Shown here piece by piece: positions 9,406 to 10,435 of a stretch of DNA of 64,000 bases. This DNA comes from Desulfobaculum xiamenense (GTDB taxonomy: Bacteria; Desulfobacterota; Desulfovibrionia; Desulfovibrionales; Desulfovibrionaceae), in contig NZ_JAATJA010000001.1 of the NCBI RefSeq assembly GCF_011927665.1, forward strand, positions 1,345,019 through 1,409,018, read 5' to 3'. The notes below the pieces were generated by a model. It saw only the letters and a list, made by a program, of their open reading frames with translations. It did not search any database and was not told the DNA's origin. Made by a program: the position numbers and the translations under genes. Every line of letters starts with the position of its first letter. The stretch's first letter is position 1.

Positions 9406-10206
9406 CTAGACGCCCTGCGCCACGGAAACCGCGTCGTCCACGTCCCAACCCTTGTGGACGAGCCCGTGAAGGGCGCGAACCATGTTGAACGTGTCGTCCG
9501 CCTGAAAGATGTTGCGACCGATGGACAGGCCGCTGCCGCCCGCCTCAAGGGAGTCGGAGACCATCTGGAGCAGTTCGCGCGGGCTGTCCATCTTGGGACC
9601 GCCAGCGATGACCACGGGCACGCACGCCCCGGCCACGACACGGCGGAAGCTCTCCACGCTGCCGGTGTAGGGCACCTTGACCACGTCAGCGCCAAGCTCC
9701 ATACCCACGCGGGCACAGTGCGCCACGACATCGGGATCAAACTCGTTTTTGATCTTGGGACCACGGGCGTAGATCATGGCGAGAATGGGCATGCCCCACT
9801 CCGCCGCGCGGGCTGCGGTACGGCCGAGGTCGGCCAGCATCTCACGCTCGGTTTCGTCGCCGAGGTTCACGTGCACGCTCACGGCGTCGGCACCGAGGCG
9901 GATGGCGTCCTCCACGGTTCCGGTCAGCGTTTTGGCGTTGGGAAAGGGCGACAGGGACGTGCTGGCCGAAAGATGCACGATGAGGCCGATATCCGGTCCC
10001 TGCTGGCGATGGCCACAGGGCACGAGGCCCTTGTGCATAAGCACGGCGTTGGCTCCGCCCGAGGCGATGTGCGAGAGGGTCTCGCGCATGTCGATGAGGC
10101 CGTCCACCGGGCCGATGGTGGTGCCATGGTCCAGCGGGACGATGATGGCGCGGCCGGTGTTGCGGTTGAATATGCGTTCGAAGCGAATGGCTTTTCCGAT
10201 GTGCAT
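9406..10206 (-). CDS. 2-amino-3,7-dideoxy-D-threo-hept-6-ulosonate (ADH) synthase, DhnA-type class I aldolase
   Basis: A 266-residue class I aldolase of the archaeal/DhnA type. It has the phosphate-site segment [11 protein letters not shown], the catalytic Tyr in MIYARGPKI, the Schiff-base Lys in DVVKVPYTG, and the C-terminal phosphate loop [12 protein letters not shown]. The family contains both fructose-bisphosphate aldolases and ADH synthases; the latter start the alternative shikimate route used by archaea and Desulfovibrio in place of DAHP synthase. I favour ADH synthase because the gene is preceded by a Tyr/Trp-rich leader peptide and attenuator. No 3-dehydroquinate synthase II gene lies next to it. 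The start was set at the ATG with AGGAGG upstream rather than the longer frame. Confidence 0.8.
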
Positions 10207-10246: not shown

Positions 10247-10283
10247 AAAAAAAAGAGGCCGCTGGATGGTATCCAACGGCCTC
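10247..10283 (-). terminator. Attenuator (intrinsic terminator) of the ADH synthase leader
   Basis: On the minus strand GAGGCCGTTGGAT pairs with ATCCAGCGGCCTC around an ACC loop, followed by eight T residues. The single imperfect position is a G-U wobble in the minus-strand RNA but a C-A mismatch in the plus-strand RNA, which marks the minus strand as the functional one. It ends 41 bases before the ADH synthase start. No other gene lies upstream on that strand for it to terminate. Confidence 0.85.
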
Positions 10284-10309
10284 TCGGGTTTCAGCGGTAT
10301 TCGCGCGCC

Positions 10310-10399
10310 CTAGCGCGCAACGCACCAGCCCCCCCAGGCCCTGCCTGCGGAATAATAATAGCTGTAGGAAGCTGCGAGGATTTCGTGCGTGTTGTTCAT
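10310..10399 (-). CDS. Tyr/Trp-rich leader peptide of the aromatic attenuator
   Basis: A 29-codon ORF (ATG to TAG) on the minus strand, ending 26 bases before the attenuator stem. It contains the run SYSYYYS at residues 11-17 and WGGW at residues 22-25: four Tyr and two Trp codons in a tiny peptide. An in-frame TAG lies four codons upstream, so the frame cannot begin earlier. It is too short to be a normal enzyme and precedes an aromatic-pathway gene, the classic arrangement of translation-coupled attenuation. No Shine-Dalgarno sequence is visible. The spacing of the upstream promoter would place the transcript start at or next to the ATG, so leaderless translation is possible. The regulatory role is inference from layout. 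Confidence 0.7.
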   Translation of the reverse strand: MNNTHEILAASYSYYYSAGRAWGGWCVAR

Positions 10400-10405
10400 G
10401 CGTGG

Positions 10406-10435
10406 ACTCTAGAGCCGCGCCGAGGGCTTTGTCAA
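10406..10435 (-). promoter_or_regulatory. Sigma-70-type promoter of the leader-ADH synthase unit
   Basis: A consensus -35 TTGACA (10435-10430) is followed after 18 bases by TAGAGT (10411-10406). The predicted start point coincides with the leader peptide ATG at 10399. Confidence 0.5.

Follow-up and report, generated by a model that had tools for sequence, protein, structure and literature searches.

The stand-alone 2-amino-3,7-dideoxy-D-threo-hept-6-ulosonate (ADH) synthase gene in the window, a stretch of 64,000 nucleotides from Desulfobaculum xiamenense, is very probably preceded by a ribosome-mediated transcription attenuator, which would raise expression of the gene when charged tRNA-Tyr is scarce. 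On the minus strand a promoter, a 29-codon ORF, an intrinsic terminator and the ADH synthase gene follow one another in this order. The preliminary description had placed the leader ORF, the terminator and the gene on this strand, and all three were recovered there. From promoter to gene, the features are:

10406 to 10435, minus strand: predicted leader promoter, sigma-70-like (TTGACA-18-TAGAGT), 6 bases before the leader ATG; same layout in relatives.
10310 to 10399, minus strand: leader peptide ORF of 29 codons, ATG to TAG, MNNTHEILAASYSYYYSAGRAWGGWCVAR, read from the sequence; 29 codons also in orthologues L035, L037 and L039.
10352 to 10366, minus strand: putative control codons Tyr12 and Tyr14-16 (TAC AGC TAT TAT TAT); a modelled stall leaves the antiterminator arm wholly or partly exposed.
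10336 to 10341, minus strand: putative antiterminator 5' arm GGGCCT, pairing with AGGCC of the terminator 5' arm (10282-10278); U-A to C-G change in orthologues L037/L039, weak at the window locus alone.
10325 to 10336, minus strand: codons Trp22 and Trp25, judged not to be control codons; not conserved, and at or downstream of the antiterminator arm.
10247 to 10285, minus strand: intrinsic terminator with a 15-pair stem and 3-base loop (10285-10253) and eight T (10254-10247), from sequence and folding.
9406 to 10206, minus strand: ADH synthase, stand-alone paralogue, above the cut-offs of TIGR01949 and PRK07226.

A recount of the distances gave 24 bases from the end of the ORF to the full terminator stem and 40 bases between the T run and the ADH synthase start codon (ATG, 10206), in place of the 26 and 41 given earlier. 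AGGAGG is found at 10218-10213. The gene is identified as an ADH synthase by two curated models, TIGR01949 (386.6 bits, cut-off 299.45) and PRK07226, and by its similarity to M. jannaschii MJ0400 (2qjg; 322 bits). A response-regulator/TPR gene lies convergent behind it, and a fumarylacetoacetate-hydrolase-like gene lies divergent in front. No aro or trp genes were found downstream in the stretch searched.

The genome contains two ADH synthases over the family cut-off. The second, on contig 2, is 68% identical to the window copy and is the first gene of an aroA'-aroB'-pheA-aroA-tyrA-trpE operon. Behind it are genes for 3-dehydroquinate synthase II, chorismate mutase/prephenate dehydratase, EPSP synthase, prephenate dehydrogenase and anthranilate synthase. 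Its leader contains Phe, Tyr and Trp codons (...MFSLMYFWLFFMYFMPACGQGWRGL). The most plausible reading of the window copy is a Tyr-responsive isozyme gene that accompanies this all-aromatic operon copy. The two paralogues appear to be split by their leader codons, much as the three DAHP synthases of E. coli are by repressor and feedback. A third DhnA-type aldolase in this genome (L033, G000:C2:102729-103481) scores 235 bits to TIGR01949, under the cut-off.

In the proposed mechanism, transcription would begin at the leader ATG or beside it, and translation of the leader would need no Shine-Dalgarno sequence. When Tyr is ample, the ribosome would reach the stop codon and cover or pass the antiterminator arm, and the terminator (10285-10247) would form. 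A stall at Tyr12-Tyr16 would leave GGGCCU just ahead free to pair with the terminator 5' arm, allowing the polymerase to enter the gene.

The promoter layout bears on the first of these steps. Among 73 parsed loci, 67 have an exact TTGACA, 65 have a spacer of 17-18 and 59 have the ATG 6-8 bases past the -10 element; most of these loci were chosen with the promoter as a criterion, and this choice accounts in part for the spacing count. The contrast in Shine-Dalgarno sequences does not depend on it. A Shine-Dalgarno-like 4-mer is found at 13 of 84 leader ATGs, compared to 73 of 84 ADH synthase ATGs. An ATG 6-8 bases behind the -10 element places the start site at the ATG or within a base or two of it, and in the window the probable start of transcription is at the leader ATG or immediately beside it (about 10399). 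The spacing and the Shine-Dalgarno contrast are best read as indicating that the leader is probably leaderless and translated without such a sequence. The window arrangement stands above chance because the same arrangement is found upstream of orthologues and paralogues across the order, and because the locus scores 41.1 bits with a covariance model of the element.

The preliminary description took the region for a translation-coupled transcription attenuator in front of the ADH synthase gene, with the Tyr codons as its sensor, and comparison with relatives upheld this. The predicted short ORF contains a run of codons for a product amino acid (Tyr12, 14-16). The run is kept in the same-genus orthologue (AYAYYYYY) and is composed of Phe and Tyr in sister genera (FFGFYYF, GFTGFYY), and the flanking residues drift. 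In the family, aromatic codons make up 34% of the control region, compared to 3% behind it. In a protein tree, the window copy groups with copies having Tyr or Phe/Tyr leaders at 100/97 support. The folding energy of the leader is 3.2 sd better than that of shuffled sequences.

Trp had also been proposed as a sensed amino acid, together with Tyr. We consider such a double sensor very unlikely. The window ORF does contain two Trp codons, Trp25 is kept in the same-genus orthologue, and Trp codons do occur in operon-type leaders. However, residues 22 and 25 are Trp/Trp only in the window, and are Cys/Trp in L035, Arg/Asp in L037 and Pro/Gly in L039. Trp22 is found in no orthologue, and Trp25 is common only to the window and the same-genus orthologue. 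In addition, both codons are at the antiterminator arm or downstream of it, and a ribosome stalled there would hide the arm; the control regions of the stand-alone copies are all without Trp. Trp was rejected as a control codon of the window leader on its non-conservation and its position. Conservation in relatives is thus found for the Tyr codons and not for the Trp codons.

The intrinsic terminator is located between the leader ORF and the ADH synthase gene, as attenuators of the trp, phe and his type require. An internal G-U pair and the T run indicate that it acts on the minus strand, in agreement with the minus-strand terminator with eight T described earlier. In the family, the control region ends in GCCYGYGGTC, which pairs with GGCCGCRGGC in the terminator 5' arm, and this antiterminator is 10-12 bp long with compensatory changes. 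In an alignment of 46 distinct sequences, the antiterminator cells are paired in 92%, compared to 36-41% with slid partners. The pair counts at one position are UA 27, CG 11, UG 4 and AU 2, with 13 two-sided changes. The terminator helix also covaries. In 31 of the 46 sequences the terminator is mismatched at the very column where the antiterminator varies between UA, CG, UG and AU, suggesting that this base is held by the antiterminator. A terminator that is weak at the exact base needed by the antiterminator is expected from selection for two alternative folds, and the conserved mismatch points to such selection. In the window, the putative antiterminator has shrunk to about 6 bp. The search for an antiterminator that includes the terminator 5' arm recovered the GGGCCT-AGGCC pairing, but not a strength above shuffles at this locus.

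To model the switch, a ribosome was placed at each codon, the RNA ahead of it was folded after being cut before the terminator 3' arm, and sequestration of the terminator arm was scored. Mean sequestration was 0.91 for a stall at the core aromatic codons and 0.32 for a ribosome at the stop codon; this drop is partly expected since less RNA is free at the stop, and shuffled spacers are the fairer test. Sequestration at the aromatic stall was 0.93, compared to 0.64 in shuffled spacers, and it was above the shuffle mean in 82 of the 84 loci. In 83 of the 84 loci a modelled stall at the control codons leaves the arm free and a ribosome further on hides it, in the window weakly (0.62 vs 0.42). Sequestration in the window was 0.81 at Tyr12, 0.43 at Tyr16 and 0.01 at Ala18. 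The Trp codons gave 0.3-0.4, there via unrelated pairing. The Tyr stalls therefore precede the hiding of the arm in this model, and Trp22 and Trp25 come after it. The Tyr-stall value in the window (0.61) is not above shuffles, 18 of 40 being at least as high, and neither is that of L035 (25 of 40). As modelled, the evidence for this single locus is weakest at this point.

A short antiterminator, no better than shuffles and shorter than that of the operon family, could also belong to a degenerate relic, an inherited family attenuator whose antiterminator has decayed and which now only lowers basal expression. This is highly improbable in our view. The same-genus orthologue retains the Tyr run, the 29-codon length, the frame, the promoter spacing and the terminator, and in sister genera a compensatory U-A to C-G change is seen in the short arm.

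Similar leaders are found across the order. In about 100 genomes, an aromatic-rich leader ORF and a GGCCGC-type terminator precede 84 of about 107 ADH synthase genes, including nearly all operon copies and most stand-alone copies. The control region was defined as the codons before the antiterminator arm, and this was used instead of a 14-residue segment, which took in non-control Trp in the window locus and in L060/L063. Trp is present in the control region of all 50 copies with trpE downstream (aro-pheA-tyrA-trpE operon), of none of the 21 stand-alone copies, and of 4 of 9 operons without trpE in reach; L127 was scored as Trp-containing solely via a Trp far upstream of the core run. The contrast between stand-alone and trpE-operon leaders speaks against the Trp sensing proposed earlier. 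The association between Trp codons and trpE operons is strong (Fisher 3.6e-17 versus all others, 2.5e-5 among operons, with counts that ignore relatedness). Trp loss and specialisation for Tyr or Phe are spread over several separate clades.

We searched for trpE genome-wide in ten genomes of operons without trpE in reach. It is absent from G009, G004, G039, G042 and G090, less surely from G004 as this genome is 89% complete, and all five of their leaders (L131, L132, L121, L105, L059) are without Trp. The other five have trpE elsewhere in the genome, and counter to the match, three of their leaders keep the core Trp. Stand-alone leaders, the one in the window included, have Tyr runs (SYYYYG, SQYYYSYG, SYSYYY), Phe runs (RFFFFSFFY, NFFFVFFFF) or both. 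Cultured relatives carrying a Tyr-type copy include Solidesulfovibrio aerotolerans DSM 16695 (L261), S. alcoholivorans DSM 5433 (L279) and Fundidesulfovibrio agrisoli SG106 (L220). In the protein tree, Tyr-type copies are located in two separate supported groups, and the Phe-type group is supported at 95/95.

Two further arrangements of the gene were observed. At L056, L108, L114, L115 and L116, ADH synthase genes are in tandem, with a leader on the first copy only. The second ADH synthase of genus g48 (L045, L047, L049, L051, L069) is without a leader, and a 363-370-codon ORF downstream of it shares 11 bases with it; tblastn gave no match between this ORF and the DHQ synthase II of the operon.

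The covariance model was trained without the window, but with the same-genus orthologue. The window element is its second-best match in its own 3.6 Mb genome. At E 1e-6 the model detects the element in 295 of the 348 genomes of the order, and in 227 of 246 good genomes. The window element is a member of a large and mostly undescribed switch family, in which the codons match the genes behind them. An Rfam search to E 10 gave no match to a Trp, Phe, His, Leu or Thr leader or to a T-box, and only chance-level sRNA matches. Aromatic leaders before ADH synthase are also found in records labelled Desulfobacteraceae or other Desulfobacterales (e.g. L228, L230, L238, L239), and in another family of the phylum (L153). 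Weaker matches elsewhere in the phylum include many chance ones, and some resemble attenuators for other amino acids.

In other families of the phylum, Trp-run leaders of the same architecture precede anthranilate synthase (L160, whose gene was checked as trpE, and L162, L163, L165, L166 and L169, read by eye). Leu-run leaders precede 2-isopropylmalate synthase (leuA) at L164, which was checked, and at L170, read by eye. At L168 the gene behind a Leu-run leader encodes a 2-oxoacid:acceptor oxidoreductase gamma subunit, and a branched-chain 2-oxoacid enzyme is suggested. L154, L155 and L158 have Ala-rich leaders of the same architecture (e.g. DAAAAAAWL), possibly an alanine attenuator, and at L154 and L155 a PRK06855-family aminotransferase is located about 200 bases behind. 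Phe-only leaders (MNSHHNRFGFFFFFGFRFFRSASGLGVCE and relatives) with the same antiterminator and terminator precede a sodium:solute symporter (PF00474) at L198 (G005:C1:50500-54000), L200 and L204; a candidate phenylalanine transporter is suggested. Short aromatic-containing ORFs are also present at L145, a model match before an EamA transporter, and at L157, where two elements in tandem precede an iron alcohol dehydrogenase.

It is likely, in our judgement, that in the Desulfovibrionales, as in some related orders, paralogous ADH synthases run shikimate entry, that the codons of a leaderless attenuator peptide dedicate each of them to Tyr, Phe or the full set of three aromatics, and that these codons are lost with the matching pathway. 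The leader would then be a readable label of the role of the gene behind it, even where that gene encodes a Na+ symporter and the leader is Phe-only. Little has been described of how sulfate reducers regulate the archaeal-type shikimate entry. Where leader codons tell the end product of an isozyme, isozyme roles become testable from sequence. The series from operons with trpE through operons without it to stand-alone genes provides a direct evolutionary test of attenuation logic.

The preliminary description regarded a leader of this kind as undescribed, which holds only in part. An attenuator was predicted before the D. vulgaris aroA'-aroB'-pheA-aroF-tyrA-trp operon (Merino database; Song et al., 2005, Table 7, PMC1173090), that is, in a sulfate reducer and upstream of the same first-gene family. 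That entry concerns the operon copy only and is a structure prediction; the available text notes no leader codons, leaderless start or stand-alone Tyr/Phe copies. None of the open-access papers searched describes Tyr- or Phe-specific leaders in front of stand-alone ADH synthase genes. Open-access papers likewise gave no description of Desulfovibrio leader peptides, DVU0460 or tyrosine-codon leaders. The second precedent, and the nearest one that has been tested, is Corynebacterium glutamicum, where the Phe-Tyr-Phe leader aroR attenuates aroF (Neshat et al., 2014, via PMC11802643; the leader also in PMC4046766). As proposed for the window leader, it combines leader-peptide attenuation, a first shikimate-pathway enzyme and Phe and Tyr codons in the leader. 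It differs in phylum, in its enzyme, which is a DAHP rather than an ADH synthase, and in its response, which according to the available account is to Phe and not to Tyr (PMC11802643). Codon content thus need not give the response.

In Sinorhizobium meliloti trpL (peTrpL, rnTrpL), the leader ATG forms the 5' end of the RNA (PMC7298713), and promoter spacing suggests the same for the window leader; unlike the window leader, trpL is a Trp sensor of trpE(G). In S. meliloti, leaderless leader ORFs are carried on attenuator RNAs that act in trans (PMC7298713), and the window is predicted to produce a transcript of that kind. The terminated short transcript could therefore work in trans, either through the RNA or through the peptide, as a small RNA or a leaderless mini-mRNA. 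We think this unlikely, as nothing tested points to a trans role and the leader peptide is not conserved outside the aromatic run; were there such a role, attenuation would still be possible alongside it. The paralogue split has a functional parallel in E. coli AroF, AroG and AroH, which are inhibited by Tyr, Phe and Trp, respectively (PMC5343134); the TrpR and TyrR regulons have been reconstructed in gammaproteobacteria (PMC5343134). Compared to E. coli trpL and pheL, the window leader has the same set of elements, with control codons, a putative antiterminator, an intrinsic terminator and a gene of the matching pathway. It differs from them in its Tyr-type sensor, in having no Shine-Dalgarno sequence and in matching no Rfam leader family.
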